IMG/VR virus record: IMGVR_UViG_3300027963_000041
Span: 1-64,000 of that record
DNA length: 64,000 bases
Reading direction: 5' to 3' (one strand)
Source of the DNA: a virus
A model generated the notes under the pieces. The model was not told the DNA's origin and did not search any database. It saw only the letters and a list, made by a program, of their open reading frames with translations. Each line of letters begins with the position of its first letter. The first letter of the stretch is position 1. Both the position numbers and the translations under genes were made by a program. Below, one piece after another: positions 46 through 24,500 of this stretch.

Positions 46-122
<77 letters not shown>

Positions 123-162
123 AAATTGTGAAAAAATAAATAGTGAAGAAGGAGGTCCGCAA

Positions 163-582
163 ATGGAACTAAATCTTTACGGTAGTCGAATAAAAGCATG
201 TCAAAGGAAGGCACTAAATTACTTTGCCAGCCAATTGTTTACTCCGCAAATGATTCCAAATTTGCATATCCGAATTAGTTATAAAAGTAATATGGGTAAT
301 GAATACGGTTGGGTTTGCGCCGAAGACTATAACATGTCAGGCGACCCGCGCCACTTCATTATGGCGCTTGCAAAAAATGATGATGTAGAAACACAAATTC
401 GTACTATGGCACATGAAATGGTCCATGTACGTCAGTTTGTTCGCAAAGAATTAGATGAAGACATGACACGTTGGAAATCAAGAAGAGTAAATATGGATAT
501 CATTCCATACAGAGAGTTGCCTTGGGAAATAGAAGCATTTCGTTTAGGCGATAAATTATTTAAACAATACATGGAGTTGTAA
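163..582 (+). CDS. SprT-like zinc metallopeptidase-type protein
   Basis: A 139-residue protein with the zinc metalloprotease signature HEMVH at residues 84-88 and a downstream acidic stretch (PWEIEAF) that could give the third ligand. I infer a small SprT/gluzincin-like protein of the kind common in large phages; the substrate is unknown. The start at 163 is preceded by GAAGGAGG at good spacing. An upstream in-frame ATG at 79 lies inside the tRNA-Pro gene and is rejected. The next gene starts two bases after the stop. Confidence 0.8.
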   Translation: MELNLYGSRIKACQRKALNYFASQLFTPQMIPNLHIRISYKSNMGNEYGWVCAEDYNMSGDPRHFIMALAKNDDVETQIRTMAHEMVHVRQFVRKELDEDMTRWKSRRVNMDIIPYRELPWEIEAFRLGDKLFKQYMEL

Positions 583-583
583 A

Positions 584-769
584 ATGACAAATGAGGTAGG
601 CAAAGGAAGCACGCCTCGCCCGTTTAGTGTATCTCATGATGAATGGATAAATCGTTGGGACGCAATTTTTGGTCGAGACTTGCAAGATAAACCAGAGCAA
701 CCTTCCGAGGTTGATGACAAGATAACAAGATACAATGAGGAAACTCAACAAGTAAAAATGCAGGGTTAG
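584..769 (+). CDS. Small conserved-looking phage protein
   Basis: A 61-residue acidic soluble protein (SVSHDEWINRWDAIFGRD core) starting right after the metallopeptidase gene, so translation is probably coupled. I do not recognise a function. Its last ten bases, including the TAG stop, overlap the 5' acceptor strand of the following tRNA-Gly gene. mRNA and tRNA therefore cannot both be intact from one transcript. Confidence 0.65.
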   Translation: MTNEVGKGSTPRPFSVSHDEWINRWDAIFGRDLQDKPEQPSEVDDKITRYNEETQQVKMQG

Positions 770-833
770 TTTAATGGTAAAACTGTAGATTTCCAATCTT
801 CCGTTGAGAGTTCGATTCTCTCACTCTGCTCCA
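760..833 (+). tRNA. tRNA-Gly (UCC)
   Basis: Acceptor GCAGGGT pairs with ACTCTGC (one G-U), the anticodon loop TTTCCAA gives UCC, the T-arm is GAGAGTTCGATTCTCTC, and CCA is encoded. The 5' strand overlaps the end of the preceding small gene. Confidence 0.95.
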
Positions 834-847
834 ACAAGGAAAAAATC

Positions 848-1318
848 ATGCGAAACATTAATTTGGAAGAAGTGAGAGCATTCATAGTAGACCAAACTCC
901 AGAGACAAAAGTTTATCTTGGGTGTGATTCAGAAAGATTTAGAATAGGCAATGTGTGGTACGCAGACTACATTACCGCAGTTGTAGTTCACATCAATGGC
1001 AACAACGGTTGCAAATTGTTTGGACAAGTAGAACGTGAAAGAGACTACGACCAAAAAGTTAATCGTCCTCGTTTCCGTTTGATGAATGAAGTTTATCGTG
1101 CAAGTGACATGTATTTGAAACTAGCAGATGTATTAGAAGGTCGCCATGTTGAAGTACACTTAGATATTAATCCAGATCAGATGTACGGATCGTCTTGTGT
1201 AATTCAAGAAGCAATAGGTTACATTCGTGGAACATGTAATGTGATTCCCCTAGTAAAGCCAAACGCATGGGCGGCTACACACGCCGCAGATCGTTTTAAA
1301 TACGCAGTAGCGGCTTAA
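848..1318 (+). CDS. RNase H-like protein of the DUF458/YkuK family
   Basis: A 156-residue protein. The N-terminal beta strand ends in YLGCDS (Asp27), a second acidic strand motif is HLDINPD, and the C-terminal region has IQEAIGYIRG. This fits the DUF458 (YkuK-like) predicted RNase H-fold family in length and motif order. A nuclease role is inferred from the fold; no substrate is known. It sits between tRNA genes, so a role in RNA metabolism is possible. The start has AAGGAAA just upstream. Confidence 0.72.
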   Translation: MRNINLEEVRAFIVDQTPETKVYLGCDSERFRIGNVWYADYITAVVVHINGNNGCKLFGQVERERDYDQKVNRPRFRLMNEVYRASDMYLKLADVLEGRHVEVHLDINPDQMYGSSCVIQEAIGYIRGTCNVIPLVKPNAWAATHAADRFKYAVAA

Positions 1319-1324
1319 CATTAT

Positions 1325-1398
1325 TGGGTTGTAGTCTAACGGTAGGACACCTGACTTTGACTCAGGTAGTTGTGGTTCGAATCCATACAGCCCAGCCA
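1325..1398 (+). tRNA. tRNA-Gln (UUG)
   Basis: Starts with T as is usual for tRNA-Gln. Acceptor TGGGTTG pairs with CAGCCCA, the anticodon stem is CCTGA/TCAGG with loop CTTTGAC (UUG), discriminator G, CCA encoded. Confidence 0.95.
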
Positions 1399-1405
1399 TT
1401 TTTAT

Positions 1406-1479
1406 GTTGTTCCTAGTGTAGTGGTCGCACACTTGTCTGTGAAACAAGTAGAGAGGGTTCGATTCCCCGGTTCAACCCA
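1406..1479 (+). tRNA. tRNA-His (GUG), acceptor stem with mismatches
   Basis: Anticodon stem CTTGT/ACAAG with loop CTGTGAA gives GUG. An extra 5' G faces discriminator C, as expected of tRNA-His. Two central acceptor positions are T-T mismatches and the T-stem is irregular (three G against four C). It may be slightly decayed or edited, although all arms can form. Confidence 0.78.
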
Positions 1480-1499
1480 CAATAACAAAGTAAATTTAT

Positions 1500-1574
1500 G
1501 CCTTGTTAACTCAGCGGTAGAGTGTCTCCCTTACAAGGAGAAGGTCGGCAGTTCGATCCTGTCACAAGGTACCA
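1500..1574 (+). tRNA. tRNA-Val (UAC)
   Basis: Acceptor GCCTTGT pairs with ACAAGGT (G-U at the end), the anticodon stem is TCTCC/GGAGA with loop CTTACAA, and the CCA end is encoded. Confidence 0.95.
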
Positions 1575-1578
1575 TTTA

Positions 1579-1652
1579 GCCCTCATAGTATAAAGGCATT
1601 ACACATCCTTGGTAAGGATGAAACACAGGATCGTTACCTGTTGAGGGCACCA
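1579..1652 (+). tRNA. tRNA-Thr (GGU)
   Basis: Acceptor GCCCTCA pairs perfectly with TGAGGGC. The anticodon stem is CATCC/GGATG with loop TTGGTAA. The T-loop (GATCGTTAC) departs from the usual TTCRA consensus. CCA is encoded. Confidence 0.9.
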
Positions 1653-1654
1653 GC

Positions 1655-1746
1655 GCCTCCATAGTTTAAGGGTAAAACGGCGGATTTATATCCCGTAAGC
1701 AACAGATAATTGGTTCATGTAGGTTCGAATCCTGCTGGAGGTACCA
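1655..1746 (+). tRNA. Unusual tRNA with long variable region (probable anticodon UAU)
   Basis: Acceptor GCCTCCA pairs with TGGAGGT, the D-stem is GTTT/AAAC, the T-arm is GTAGG/CCTGC with loop TTCGAAT, and CCA is encoded, so it is a tRNA gene. The anticodon stem is poor: GCGGA against CCCGT with one mismatch, loop TTTATAT, which reads as UAU (Ile). About 22 nt lie between anticodon stem and T-stem, which is class II length although Ile tRNAs are class I. The amino acid is uncertain. Confidence 0.7.
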
Positions 1747-1748
1747 TT

Positions 1749-1824
1749 GCCGCTTTAGCAAATGTGGTCATTGCACCGGTTTGAAGCACCGAGGAAGTTG
1801 GTTCGATCCCGACAGGCGGCACCA
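1749..1824 (+). tRNA. tRNA-Phe (GAA)
   Basis: Acceptor GCCGCTT pairs with AGGCGGC (one G-U), the anticodon loop is TTGAAGC in a CGGT/ACCG stem, discriminator A, CCA encoded. Confidence 0.9.
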
Positions 1825-1832
1825 GAATTTAC

Positions 1833-1907
1833 ACCGGATTAACTCAGCGGTAGAGTAATCGCTTGATAAGCGATAAGTCATTGGTTCGATCCCAATATCC
1901 GGTACCA
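1833..1907 (+). tRNA. tRNA-Ile (GAU)
   Basis: Acceptor ACCGGAT pairs with ATCCGGT, the anticodon stem is ATCGC/GCGAT with loop TTGATAA, and CCA is encoded. Confidence 0.95.
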
Positions 1908-1908
1908 T

Positions 1909-1986
1909 GCCCTACTAGACAAATTGGTAAAGTCATCTCTCTCAAAAGGAGAAGTTTTCTCTGTTCGAATCAGAGGTAGGGTACCA
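1909..1986 (+). tRNA. tRNA-Leu (CAA) with short variable loop
   Basis: Acceptor GCCCTAC pairs with GTAGGGT. The anticodon stem TCTCT/GGAGA has loop CTCAAAA, anticodon CAA. T-arm CTCTG/CAGAG, discriminator A, CCA encoded. Only six bases separate the anticodon stem and T-stem, whereas bacterial Leu tRNAs normally have a long class II arm. Confidence 0.85.
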
Positions 1987-1999
1987 AAAATAAATAATT

Positions 2000-2076
2000 G
2001 CCCAGGTGATGGAATTGGTATACATGTTAGTCTTAGAAACTAAATCTTGCGGGTTCGAGTCCCGCCTTGGGCACCA
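2000..2076 (+). tRNA. tRNA-Leu (UAG) with short variable loop
   Basis: Leu-like D-arm (GATGGAATTGGTATACA), anticodon stem TTAGT/ACTAA with loop CTTAGAA, T-arm GCGGG/CCCGC, A73 and encoded CCA. The variable loop is only ATCTT, so the gene is 77 nt long instead of about 85-90. Confidence 0.92.
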
Positions 2077-2081
2077 AATAA

Positions 2082-2171
2082 GGAAGTGTGGCAGAGTCCG
2101 GTTTATTGCACCTGTCTTGAAAACAGACGGCTCGAAAGGGTCCAAGAGTTCGAATCTCTTCGCTTCCGCCA
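2082..2171 (+). tRNA. tRNA-Ser (UGA)
   Basis: Class II tRNA with a proper long variable arm. Acceptor GGAAGTG pairs with CGCTTCC, loop CTTGAAA gives UGA, discriminator G, CCA encoded. Confidence 0.95.
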
Positions 2172-2191: not shown

Positions 2192-2220
2192 TTGACATTT
2201 ACATAGATACCTGATACAAT
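2192..2220 (+). promoter_or_regulatory. Sigma70-type promoter for the structured RNA / Ro-like transcript
   Basis: TTGACA (2192-2197), a 17-base spacer and TACAAT (2215-2220). Transcription would start near 2227, just before structured module A, and could run through modules B and C into the Ro-like gene at 2702. Confidence 0.8.
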
Positions 2221-2240
2221 TGTTATATTGAGTTAGTAAG

Positions 2241-2463
2241 GGGTTGGATTCAGCAATCTTTAACATAAAACGCTAAAGAACTGTCTTCTACAGGAGGACC
2301 ACCGCAAGGTGTGTAATTACGGAGACTAGAGAGTAAACTCGAATTAAATCTGACGCTGGAAAGACAGACAAGATGATGGTAGCCCATCTGATTACGGTAG
2401 GGTTTTTTTATCCGAAAGGAAGTACCGTGGTTTAAGAACCGATAATACTTACCCGACCAACCC
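2241..2463 (+). ncRNA. Structured RNA module A of a repeated family
   Basis: GGGTTGG (2241-2247) pairs perfectly with CCAACCC (2457-2463), closing a domain of about 220 nt. Just inside the 5' strand is the motif A-TTCAGCAA (2249-2256), also present in modules B and C. Local hairpins inside include CTGT/ACAG (2281-2293), CACC-GCAA-GGTG (2300-2311), AGATG/CATCT (2371-2389), ACGGTA/TACCGT (2394-2428) enclosing TCC-GAAA-GGA, and GGTT/AACC (2429-2440). No plausible gene lies here. Candidates are a Y-RNA-like partner of the downstream Ro-like protein or a large ornate phage RNA. Identity is unproven. Confidence 0.7.
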
Positions 2464-2484
2464 GATTTTATTTTGAAATGTTTT

Positions 2485-2599
2485 AGAATAGGTTCAGCAA
2501 CAAATTCAAACAGGCTTCAAGCCTGTTATACTTGGTCCGTTTCGGCGGACGACATGAGTTTCGAGTTCTCATGTAAATCAAAAAGAAGAAAACTATTCT
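2485..2599 (+). ncRNA. Structured RNA module B
   Basis: AGAATAG (2485-2491) pairs with CTATTCT (2593-2599). Directly inside is G-TTCAGCAA (2493-2500). Three consecutive hairpins follow: AACAGGC/GCCTGTT (2509-2527), GTCCG/CGGAC (2535-2550) and ACATGAG/CTCATGT (2552-2574). An A-rich strand precedes the 3' stem. The stem sequence differs from modules A and C while the motif is the same, which favours a conserved RNA shape. Confidence 0.7.
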
Positions 2600-2619
2600 G
2601 TTTTATCATGAAAGATTTT

Positions 2620-2679
2620 AGGTTAAGTTCAGCAAACTAAAAGCATTCAACTTGTAATTGAAAACGCAAAAATTAACCT
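2620..2679 (+). ncRNA. Structured RNA module C in the leader of the Ro-like gene
   Basis: AGGTTAA (2620-2626) pairs with TTAACCT (2673-2679). Inside lie G-TTCAGCAA (2628-2635) and one hairpin TTCAA/TTGAA (2646-2662, 7-nt loop). It ends about 22 bases before the start codon at 2702, so it could be an RNA partner processed from the leader, a binding site for autoregulation, or both. Confidence 0.65.
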
Positions 2680-2701
2680 GTTGTATTAAAGGAGTTATAC
2701 T

Positions 2702-4123
2702 ATGACAACATTTGTAGACGCAATAGTAAACCAAGAAGCCCGTACCGAGAATGGTATGAAGGCTCGTAAGTCAACCGCGAATGCAGTTGTAGACTTGTTC
2801 TATAACGCTGGCGCTTCTCGCGGTAAGAATATTGTGCCAGCATTTACTGCCGCAATGGCAGAGAACCGTGACCTTGCATTGCGTGTAGCCGCATGGCTTC
2901 GTGATGCCCGCGGTGGTGCTGGTGAACGCCAGTTGTTCCGCGACATTCTTGTGCATCTTGAGAAGACAGACCCTAATGCCGCAAAAGCATTACTCAAGAA
3001 AGTGCCTGAATTAGGTCGTTGGGATGACTTGTTTATCTTCAAGTCTAAAGAGTTGAAGAATGAAGCATACACTATGCTTGGTGATGCCTTGCGCCAGCGC
3101 AATGGACTTGCCGCAAAGTGGACACCTCGTCAAGGTCCTATCGCCGTAGAGATTCGTAATTTCTTCGGCATGTCTCCAAAGTTCTATCGTAAGTCTTTGG
3201 TCGAAATGACTAAAGTTGTAGAACAAAACATGTGTGCAAACACATGGGATGACATTAACTTTTCTCATGTACCTTCTGTTGCGTCTGCACGTTACAAGAA
3301 AGCATTCAACCGCAATACTGAAAAGTATGCAGAGTATGTTGCTTCCCTTGTGAAAGGCGACAATCCAGAAGTAAAGGTAAATGCATCCGTTGCATATCCA
3401 TACGATGTACTGAAAGGTCGCATCGGTGCATATGGAGTTACTTTTGACAAGACCGAATTGGACTTGATTCAAAAGCAATGGGAAGCATTGCCTAACTATG
3501 TTGGTGATGCAAGCATTCTACCTTTGGTAGATGTATCTGGCTCTATGACTACTTTAGCAGGAAAGAACACAAAACTTTCTTGCCTTGAAGTGGCAGTCTC
3601 TCTTGGTCTGTATCTTGCAGACAAGAACGCAGGTAAGTTCAAGGATACGTTCCTGACTTTCTCTGCAAAGCCAGAGTTGTTACACTTGAAGGGTAACATC
3701 AACCAGAAGATTGATCAAATGATTAAATCTAAATGGGATATGAACACTAACCTTCATGCCGCATTCAACAAGATTCTTGATGTTGCGGTGAAAGGCAATG
3801 TGCCACAAGAAGAAATGCCATCAATGGTATTGATTCTGTCTGACATGCAGTTTGACCAATGCGTAAAGCATGATAACTCTGCAATCGAAATGATTGAACG
3901 CAAGTATGAAGCCGCAGGATACAAAGTGCCACAAGTGGTGTTTTGGAATCTCAATGCATCATACGGTAACGCGCCAGTTAAGTTCGATAAGACTGGTACT
4001 GCGCTAGTGTCTGGATTCTCTCCAGCAATTGTGAAGCCACTCCTGTCGGGAGACATTGATAACTTCACGCCAGTATCGATCATGCTGAAAACCATCATGC
4101 AAGATCGTTACGCAGTTCTTTAA
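2702..4123 (+). CDS. Ro60/TROVE-like RNA-binding protein (DUF2828 type)
   Basis: A 473-residue protein. The N-terminal two thirds is helical, with LRDARGGAGERQLFR and a KKVPELGRWDDLF segment typical of the HEAT-like ring of TROVE/DUF2828 proteins. The C-terminal third is a von Willebrand A domain with the metal (MIDAS) motif DVSGS from Asp277 and a later LILSDMQFD strand. Ro proteins bind Y RNAs and damaged or misfolded RNAs; by homology this one should act in cytoplasmic RNA handling. AAAGGAG precedes the start. Promoter and modules A-C lie upstream, a further structured RNA downstream, and tRNA genes on both sides. This context supports an RNP function. Confidence 0.85.
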   Translation: MTTFVDAIVNQEARTENGMKARKSTANAVVDLFYNAGASRGKNIVPAFTAAMAENRDLALRVAAWLRDARGGAGERQLFRDILVHLEKTDPNAAKALLKKVPELGRWDDLFIFKSKELKNEAYTMLGDALRQRNGLAAKWTPRQGPIAVEIRNFFGMSPKFYRKSLVEMTKVVEQNMCANTWDDINFSHVPSVASARYKKAFNRNTEKYAEYVASLVKGDNPEVKVNASVAYPYDVLKGRIGAYGVTFDKTELDLIQKQWEALPNYVGDASILPLVDVSGSMTTLAGKNTKLSCLEVAVSLGLYLADKNAGKFKDTFLTFSAKPELLHLKGNINQKIDQMIKSKWDMNTNLHAAFNKILDVAVKGNVPQEEMPSMVLILSDMQFDQCVKHDNSAIEMIERKYEAAGYKVPQVVFWNLNASYGNAPVKFDKTGTALVSGFSPAIVKPLLSGDIDNFTPVSIMLKTIMQDRYAVL

Positions 4124-4585: not shown

Positions 4586-5488
4586 ATGAGAATTGCAGTC
4601 TGTTCGGACATTCATCTTGAATTTGGTCCCATAGAATTAAAGAATACTGATAACGCTGACGTACTTATACTGTCTGGCGATATTTGCGTTGCTAAAGATT
4701 TGATGGAACGCGATAGTTATAATATTCGTGGTGATCATGATCGTTCAAACAAATATCACACCTTCTTTGAAGTTTGTGGTGTAGAGTTTCCTAAAGTCAT
4801 TTACATCATGGGTAATCATGAACACTACAATGGTGACTATGCCATTACGCATCGTGTTCTCAAAGAGCGCCTTGGCTACATCAAGAATCTTCATATTCTA
4901 GATAAAGAAACAGTTCGTATTGGCGAAGTGACTTTCATTGGTGGTACTCTTTGGACTGATATGAACAAAGAAGACCCCATGACTTTGCATAGCATTCGCA
5001 GAATGATGAATGACTTCCGTTGTGTAGAGAATAGTAACAACATGGTTTCATACAAAGTTCCCGAGTATGCGAAACTTGATAATGGTGAAATAGATTACTC
5101 AAATGTTGTGAAGACTACGTTCAAAGAGCGTCCTGCAACATTCACGCCTGAAGATGCGGTTGTAGATCACAAAGCAATGGTTGAATTCATTCGTCAAACA
5201 ATCGCTGAGAATCCTACGGATAAGTATGTTGTTGTTGGGCATCATGCGCCAAGCCGTACGTCAACCCATCCTCGTTATGCAAGAGAAGAATTGATGAATG
5301 GTGGATATAGTTCTAGTCTAGATGAATTTATTTTAGATAATTCTCAAATTAAACTGTGGACTCATGGACATACGCACGAAGACTTTGATTATATGATTGG
5401 TAGCACAAGAGTTGTTTGCAACCCTCGTGGCTATATCAACTACGAAGGTCGCGCAGATCATTTTGAATTAAAAACTTTTGAAATTTAA
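4586..5488 (+). CDS. Calcineurin-like metallophosphoesterase
   Basis: A 300-residue protein with the complete set of metal-binding blocks in order: SDIHLEF (Asp8, His10), SGDI (Asp32), MGNHEH, VGHHAPS and THGHTH. It should hydrolyse a phosphomono- or diester with a two-metal centre; the substrate is unknown. Phage relatives are sometimes linked to nucleic-acid or nucleotide turnover. The start at 4586 follows AAAGGAAAA. A longer reading frame beginning at 4394 runs back through the two tRNA genes and is not accepted. Transcription probably comes from the promoter at 4454. Confidence 0.88.
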   Translation: MRIAVCSDIHLEFGPIELKNTDNADVLILSGDICVAKDLMERDSYNIRGDHDRSNKYHTFFEVCGVEFPKVIYIMGNHEHYNGDYAITHRVLKERLGYIKNLHILDKETVRIGEVTFIGGTLWTDMNKEDPMTLHSIRRMMNDFRCVENSNNMVSYKVPEYAKLDNGEIDYSNVVKTTFKERPATFTPEDAVVDHKAMVEFIRQTIAENPTDKYVVVGHHAPSRTSTHPRYAREELMNGGYSSSLDEFILDNSQIKLWTHGHTHEDFDYMIGSTRVVCNPRGYINYEGRADHFELKTFEI

Positions 5489-23838: not shown

Positions 23839-24106
23839 AAAGCACAAAGAGATTATGAGTATTGCACAGGAAGAATGTGCAGAGGTGATTCAAGCCATCA
23901 GCAAAATTTTTAGATTCGGATTAGATGAATCATTCGAAGGTAGAACAAATCGCGAAAGATTGACAAGTGAACTCGGCGATCTTCAATGCATGATTACACT
24001 ACTTAAACAATATGAAGTGGTTGATGATTTTAAAGTGCATCAAGCCGAACTTGTAAAAAGAACTCGCCTTAGCAAGTGGTCAAACATTTTCACCGAGGTG
24101 CAATAG
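23813..24106 (+). CDS. MazG-like nucleotide pyrophosphohydrolase
   Basis: A 97-98-residue all-helical protein: EIMSIAQEECAEVIQAISKI (E-x-x-E metal-binding helix) and RLTSELGDLQCMITLL (ExxD helix). These are the two metal-binding helices of MazG/phosphoribosyl-ATP pyrophosphohydrolase-like enzymes. Likely hydrolyses an NTP or (p)ppGpp-like nucleotide. Start 23813 or 23816; it overlaps the exonuclease gene by 26 bases. Confidence 0.8.
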   Translation: MMNNYYLDEKHKEIMSIAQEECAEVIQAISKIFRFGLDESFEGRTNRERLTSELGDLQCMITLLKQYEVVDDFKVHQAELVKRTRLSKWSNIFTEVQ

Positions 24107-24124
24107 TAATTGTGCGCTAAATAT

Positions 24125-24192
24125 TAAGATGACTGTATGAAGTTAACCGAAAGGTGTTCTGGACGGGGGTGCGAATCCCCCCACCTCCACCA
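24125..24192 (+). ncRNA. ssrA: Permuted tmRNA, acceptor (3') piece
   Basis: GGAC, then a perfect T-stem GGGGG/CCCCC around loop TGCGAAT, then CACCTCC-ACCA (24182-24192). CACCTCC pairs with GGGGGTG at 24271-24277 (one G-U), building the acceptor stem with the downstream coding piece. GTTAACC (24142-24148) and TGTA (24134-24137) pair with GGTAAC (24292-24297) and TACG (24301-24304), forming helix P2. The acceptor part thus precedes the coding part, as in circularly permuted tmRNA genes. The 5' boundary is approximate. Confidence 0.85.
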
Positions 24193-24270
24193 AAAACGCA
24201 TCTGCCAGTCGCTCTGGTTGTATGGTACTATTCTAGAAATGAGGTTCAAGTCCTTTGGTGCGTTTTTGAT
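24193..24270 (+). other. tmRNA internal spacer, tRNA-like hairpin
   Basis: Between the CCA of the acceptor piece and the mature 5' G of the coding piece. AAAACGCATC (24193-24202) pairs with GGTGCGTTTT (24257-24266). Inside are a CCAG/CTGG arm and a T-arm-like GGTTCAAGTCC, but no acceptable anticodon arm. Expected to be removed during processing; the tRNA-like form could recruit RNase P or RNase Z. Confidence 0.65.
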
Positions 24271-24500
24271 GGGGGTGCATAGTTTCGACAGGGTAACAAG
24301 TACGAAGATGGACAGTCCGGTAGATGACGACCGTAAATCGCATAAAAAAAGTAAACGCAAACGATGAAAAGTTCGCATTGGCAGCCTAAACGCTGACTAG
24401 GGTTTCGGTGAGTTTCCTCGTAACAGAATAACTCACCACTAATTTTGGATAGTTGTAATCTGCGGCAACACCCGTTAGGCAGACCTAACTTTGGATTGCT
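24271..24500 (+). ncRNA. ssrA: Permuted tmRNA, coding piece with tag ANDEKFALAA
   Basis: Begins GGGGGTGCATAGTTTCGACA, the conserved tmRNA 5' end with the D-arm-like TTTCGACAG. The resume frame at 24357-24389 encodes ANDEKFALAA and TAA, matching proteobacterial tags such as E. coli ANDENYALAA. Downstream hairpins GGTGAGTT/AACTCACC (24407-24437) and GTTAGG/CCTAAC (24474-24489) are candidates for the later helices and pseudoknots. tmRNA rescues stalled ribosomes and tags the product for ClpXP. The 3' boundary is uncertain. Confidence 0.92.

Follow-up and report, generated by a model that had tools for sequence, protein, structure and literature searches.

CAGCAA-bearing stem modules next to phage Ro-like genes: a probable and widespread type of Y RNA that has mostly gone unrecognised

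The window, a 64,000-nucleotide (64-kb) stretch of viral DNA, carries a tRNA array, three RNA modules and a gene for a Ro-like protein in succession on the plus strand. The array (46..2171) contains 12 tRNA genes identified by ARAGORN in addition to small protein genes, and lies directly upstream of the modules. A sigma-70 type promoter with the sequence TTGACA-17-TACAAT, as originally predicted, is located at 2192..2220 and precedes module A (2241..2463), which is followed by module B (2484..2600) and module C (2619..2680). Among 57 leaders, 13 have a similar promoter immediately 5' of their first module, compared to 1.5% of random stretches. The ribosome binding site AAAGGAG (2688..2694) sits outside the stem of module C, ahead of the Ro-like gene at 2702..4123. 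A protein of the RNaseH_like family PF04308 is encoded nearby at 848-1318, and in phage KVP40 a PF04308 gene directly adjoins the Ro-like gene. The Rfam scan of the window returned tRNA and tmRNA only, the latter being a phage tmRNA at 24080-24480 that matches the permuted tmRNA and beta_tmRNA families, with a tag peptide of ANDEKFALAA according to ARAGORN.

The Ro-like protein, which resembles Ro60, a ring-shaped protein of RNA quality control, has 473 residues and consists of a helical part and a vWA domain with a DxSGS motif, and is covered by the Pfam families DUF2828 and DUF7788. Its AlphaFold model has a mean pLDDT of 76. Structural similarity search using Foldseek revealed only Ro60/TROVE proteins in the PDB at E<0.001, namely 9kop, 9l5y (Ro60 of Thermus phage phiLo), 2nvo (Rsr of D. 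radiodurans) and 1yvp (Ro autoantigen with RNA), with a TM of ~0.55 against the phage Ro60 structure. As the TROVE model PF05731 has no match at E<=0.001 across the entire record, the protein has a predicted Ro60 fold but belongs to a distinct sequence family. The gene is present in 677 of 50,697 named phages, where it is mostly annotated as hypothetical or as an RNA-binding protein, and RNA ligase genes are found near it in phages XbC2 and Listeria List-36.

The three modules occupy the places assigned to them by the original prediction and possess the 7-bp stems it described. In module A, the strand GGGTTGG (2241-2247) pairs with CCAACCC (2457-2463) and encloses a conserved capping domain of ~200 nt. 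Module B is closed by AGAATAG (2485-2491) and CTATTCT (2593-2599), which form the core of an 8-bp stem (2484-2491/2593-2600) capped by a domain of ~100 nt; this domain contains a T-arm-like hairpin, CATGAGTTTCGAGTTCTCATG (2553..2573, plus strand), which is kept in the modules of relatives in the form (T/A/G)GAGTTTCGANTTCTC, and no D-arm was found in module B. Module C is a minimal module of 62 nt, in which AGGTTAA (2620-2626) and TTAACCT (2673-2679) form the core of an 8-bp stem (2619-2626/2673-2680). The stems of B and C reach 8 bp via a U.G closing pair (2484/2600 and 2619/2680, respectively). In each module, a single purine separates the 5' strand from TTCAGCAA (2249-2256, 2493-2500 and 2628-2635), and three nucleotides lie between the strand and CAGCAA; this part of the prediction stood, but the core of the motif proved to be NNNCAGCAA. 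In total, TTCAGCAA occurs nine times in the 64 kb against 4.6 expected, and three of these copies lie within 390 nt, all three with a partner strand. Folding of the whole leader is no better than that of shuffles (z -1.5), and the support for an RNA shape is comparative, not energetic.

A protein scan of viral contigs yielded about 80 loci with relatives of the Ro-like gene (65-95% identical), whose leaders mostly hold one to four modules with differing stems and the consensus form TAGRNTNN-NNN-CAGCAA ... NNANYCTG-TT. The leaders of the window and its relatives contain 130 distinct CAGCAA sites, and at 111 of them an exact 7-bp partner strand followed by G lies within 300 nt, compared to 0.4% of random leader positions. 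Elsewhere in the relatives' loci, 40 of 444 CAGCAA sites have such a partner, and most of these 40 are further real modules upstream or downstream, many of them exactly between tRNA genes. Altogether 35 distinct stem pairs were observed, with a G-C base pair in 121 of 124 modules and GTT after the CT end in 95 of 124. Across 45 short modules no base pair is broken, and at four of the eight pairs both partners vary, in agreement with the compensatory changes that had been proposed as a check; when the partner strand is shifted by 1-3 columns, pairing falls to 26-37%. These 45 modules were selected for complementarity, and the 100% pairing in R1, a covariance model of the short module type, is thus circular, whereas the count of 111/130 and the matches in independent phages are free of this circularity. 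Module C is a member of the R1 training set; module B is matched by R1 with 27.9 bits (E 0.0018 over 174 kb). Similarly, nine sequences of the module A type could be aligned, and their terminal stem covaries (GC/AU, AU/UA, GC/AU), as do the internal helices. The covarying stems, together with the invariant CAGCAA across relatives, bear out the proposed conserved RNA shape.

The modules fall into three size types. Short modules of the C type (52-66 nt) either adjoin the start codon or sit between tRNA genes, intermediate modules (~75-170 nt) often enclose a T-arm-like hairpin, and long modules of the A type (~195-245 nt) have a conserved fold of their own. Some modules enclose a permuted tRNA-like domain, with a T-arm followed by a D-arm; a tRNA-like domain is expected in one or more of the Y RNAs of each bacterial species. 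In a scan of 454 descriptor matches, some of which are chance, 19 modules have a T-arm and then a D-arm and 110 have a T-arm; the former occur at loci L061, L002, L010, L021, L043 and in other relatives. The window modules lack a full T/D-arm pair, and only module B has a T-arm-like hairpin. The comparison with YrlA (RF02553) suggested by the original prediction gave no match in the window using Rfam, whereas modules of relatives gave matches below the gathering score of 69, with 29.1 bits for the first module of L061 (E 0.0004 on the leader; T-arm then D-arm), 39.8 bits for a LeBron module (E 3e-5) and at best 41.9 bits for an XbC2 module (E 7e-6).

We further applied R1 alongside a simple descriptor to named phages. 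Modules, either near the gene or in tRNA arrays, were found in phages of Synechococcus (BUCT-ZZ01), Listeria (List-36 and CKA15), Campylobacter (CP81), Cronobacter (S13), Xanthomonas (XbC2), Mycobacterium (mycobacteriophage LeBron), Vibrio (KVP40), Stenotrophomonas (DLP6) and Aeromonas (APT65, with four tandem modules before the gene), in addition to phages of the Felix O1 type. In independent phages outside the training set, the stems of the R1 matches are intact and different. A covariance-model search, of the kind that had been recommended, found R1 matches at E<=1 in 19 of 20 records with the gene; R1 misses the long A-type modules and the GC-rich LeBron modules, which rest on the descriptor and alignment, those of LeBron being found by the descriptor only. 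By contrast, blastn of the leader against named phages gave nothing useful beyond a 42-nt match in XbC2, which is itself a module. In the reverse direction, viral contigs were chosen solely by the pattern TTTAGGATAGNNNCAGCAA, and 15 of the 22 long ones, all new to the analysis, carry a Ro-like gene, though most of the contigs are fragments; among named phages, the gene is present in only 677 of 50,697. Phages T4, T5 and PaP1, a small negative control, have neither a Ro-like gene nor a convincing module (best score 17.3 bits). The stable RNAs of T4 and T5 (rnaC, rnaD, RNA1, RNA2 and others) were considered as members and rejected, as the motif is absent. Modules also lie just before the gene on contigs with bacterial bin labels. 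On a contig binned as Woesearchaeota (KatS3mg002, L225), two tandem modules (4812-4940) directly precede a gene for a Ro-like protein 35% identical to that of the window; this contig may represent an archaeal virus or a mis-binned phage.

Sequence comparison thus supports for the modules a conserved structure, covariation, a wide linkage to the Ro-like gene and a tRNA mimic in a subset. On these grounds, the modules are probably Y-like RNAs and would be loaded onto the phage-encoded Ro protein. In each module, the two ends pair into a closing stem of 7-8 bp that leaves CAGCAA in a single-stranded loop beside the 5' strand, and the stem and loop together would form the docking site on the Ro60-like ring protein. 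The variable capping domain, which is a tiny hairpin in the ~60-nt form, a T-arm or T/D-arm mimic, or a larger fold, might serve as the effector part. The RNAs would be transcribed from their own promoter or together with the tRNA array and processed into separate RNAs, which could act in trans to gate the Ro ring or tether other factors during phage handling of tRNA and other structured RNA.

The placement of the modules bears on whether they act in trans or in cis. In the window and most of its close relatives, ~20 nt separate the end of the last module from the start codon, and modules lie directly upstream of the gene also in APT65, the Listeria and Campylobacter phages and the Woesearchaeota-binned contig, as would be expected if they were 5' untranslated sites bound by the Ro-like protein to repress or stabilise its own mRNA. 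However, the predicted leader position describes only some of the phages, even though the linkage to the gene stands. The modules of XbC2 are interspersed with tRNA genes at a distance of ~200 kb from the Ro-like gene, those of LeBron and the Felix O1-like phages lie just downstream of it, and those of KVP40, DLP6 and S13 between tRNA genes; in many phages, modules between tRNA genes are kilobases away from the Ro-like gene. The position of the ribosome binding site outside the stem also speaks against such a role. As modules are found at such distant, downstream or tRNA-interspersed places, RNAs acting in trans are favored and a purely cis-acting leader is unlikely, although a cis role may exist alongside the trans role. 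In one XbC2 region (L082, 305965-314007), at least eight modules alternate with tRNA genes, and the spacer preceding CAGCAA is mostly two nucleotides long.

The many stand-alone modules exactly between tRNA genes would also suit processing or spacer elements of tRNA transcripts, whose stems protect the precursor or direct its cleavage without any Ro partner. This explanation is quite improbable, given that T4 and T5 bear tRNA genes but neither a Ro-like gene nor modules, and that the Ro-like gene accompanies the modules on most contigs chosen by the RNA pattern. Finally, one large ornate RNA of the ROOL or GOLLD kind, which the original prediction had kept as an alternative, is hardly credible in spite of a ROOL match in the same neighborhood in Listeria phages (List-36, L091 1426-1977, 91.5 bits, just under gathering), as neither family matches in the window by Rfam, the L091 match is separate from the modules at 2619-2890, and the occurrence of single modules on their own largely refutes it.

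The Y-like reading places the modules beside known RNAs, contrary to the original view that no described family has this arrangement. Y RNAs are reported from bacteria and mycobacteriophages (PMC12282133, citing Chen et al. 2014), phage Y RNAs in general are already known, and the YrlA tRNA mimic occurs inside several modules. Like YrlA, which is encoded with the Ro60 orthologue Rsr, the modules are encoded near a Ro60-family gene; their 5' and 3' ends pair into a predicted Ro-binding stem, as judged from pairing and covariation; the permuted T-arm/D-arm mimic of some modules has the arm order of the YrlA model; and alignments of several modules to that model cover either its full length or its core. 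They differ in that CAGCAA adjacent to the stem, a feature absent from the YrlA consensus, takes the place of the YrlA internal loop, that many modules lack the tRNA mimic and measure only ~60 nt, that they form tandem arrays, and that the neighboring protein is of the DUF2828 type rather than PF05731. Vertebrate Y RNAs are likewise small RNAs with an end-paired stem as the Ro60 docking site; however, this site, a 7-bp helix with a bulged C and a 3-nt bulge (PMC4726728), has no CAGCAA. ROOL and GOLLD are also phage RNAs near tRNA arrays, but are large single structures. Three features seem to be new, as no description of them was found in Rfam or the literature examined: the CAGCAA signature common to the modules, the minimal forms of ~60 nt scattered between tRNA genes, and a likeness to dictyostelid Class I RNAs. 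Overall, the modules have the look of a type of Y RNA that is widespread but has mostly escaped recognition, and whose shared signature gives the widespread phage Ro-like gene a concrete candidate partner and makes ~60-nt minimal Y-like RNAs available for structural work; it also suggests that phages maintain their tRNA pools via a Ro/Y system.

The elements of this arrangement, a terminal stem, a CAGCAA motif and a 3' CUGU, have already been described for the Class I RNAs of social amoebae (RF01414), which are reported to be unique to Dictyostelia, measure 42-65 nt and are closed by a short stem that covaries and carries an invariant 5' G and a 3' CTGT (Kjellin et al. 2021, PMC7919456); in the Rfam consensus, CAGCAA forms the end of their unpaired motif. 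The phage modules share the terminal stem of ~6 bp with the conserved 5' G and 3' CTGT, the unpaired motif ending with CAGCAA right after the 5' strand, the A/U-rich variable interior and the many diverging copies. Compared to the 11-nt Class I motif (T3, C6, C9, A10, A11), the part upstream of CAGCAA is variable in the modules and one nucleotide shorter, the amoebae having one more nucleotide between stem and CAGCAA. In addition, the amoebal genes have the eukaryotic DUSE promoter, in contrast to the sigma-70 type promoters in phage DNA, and the known amoebal partner is the RRM protein Rnp1A. Module C aligns with RF01414 end to end but weakly (15.3 bits), and relatives reach 23-27 bits at the homologous place. 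Of the 4227 Rfam families, RF01414 gives the best match to the APT65 array, in which three of four modules reach E values of 0.0015, 0.03 and 0.24; the best score, 28.4 bits (E 0.0015 on 271 nt), falls below the gathering score of 41.5. Within ~128 kb of phage DNA, the listed RF01414 matches coincide with stem and CAGCAA modules. With scores below gathering and many modules examined, this likeness is suggestive rather than proof, and may reflect convergence. We tentatively consider, as a possibility that we do not favor, that one ancient module of a stem and CAGCAA RNA with a DUF2828-type Ro protein spans phages of diverse hosts and social amoebae, the Class I RNAs being amoebal Y RNAs. If so, RNAs regarded as unique and linked to multicellularity would form the eukaryotic branch of the stem and CAGCAA RNAs. 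The likeness in itself offers a new way to test the function of the amoebal RNA class.

In Listeria phage CKA15 (L218, OR088597), the modules lie at about 3730-4000, between CKA15_056 and CKA15_055. The hugely transcribed non-coding loci CKA15_059-061, suggested as possible Y RNAs (PMC12282133), are at 2585-2895 and map by offset to the ROOL match of List-36; they correspond to ROOL rather than to the modules. In purified particles of the phage, CKA15_055, the Ro-like protein, was identified at 57% sequence coverage (PMC12282133 Table 1), and the Ro protein, possibly with RNAs, may thus be packaged in virions.
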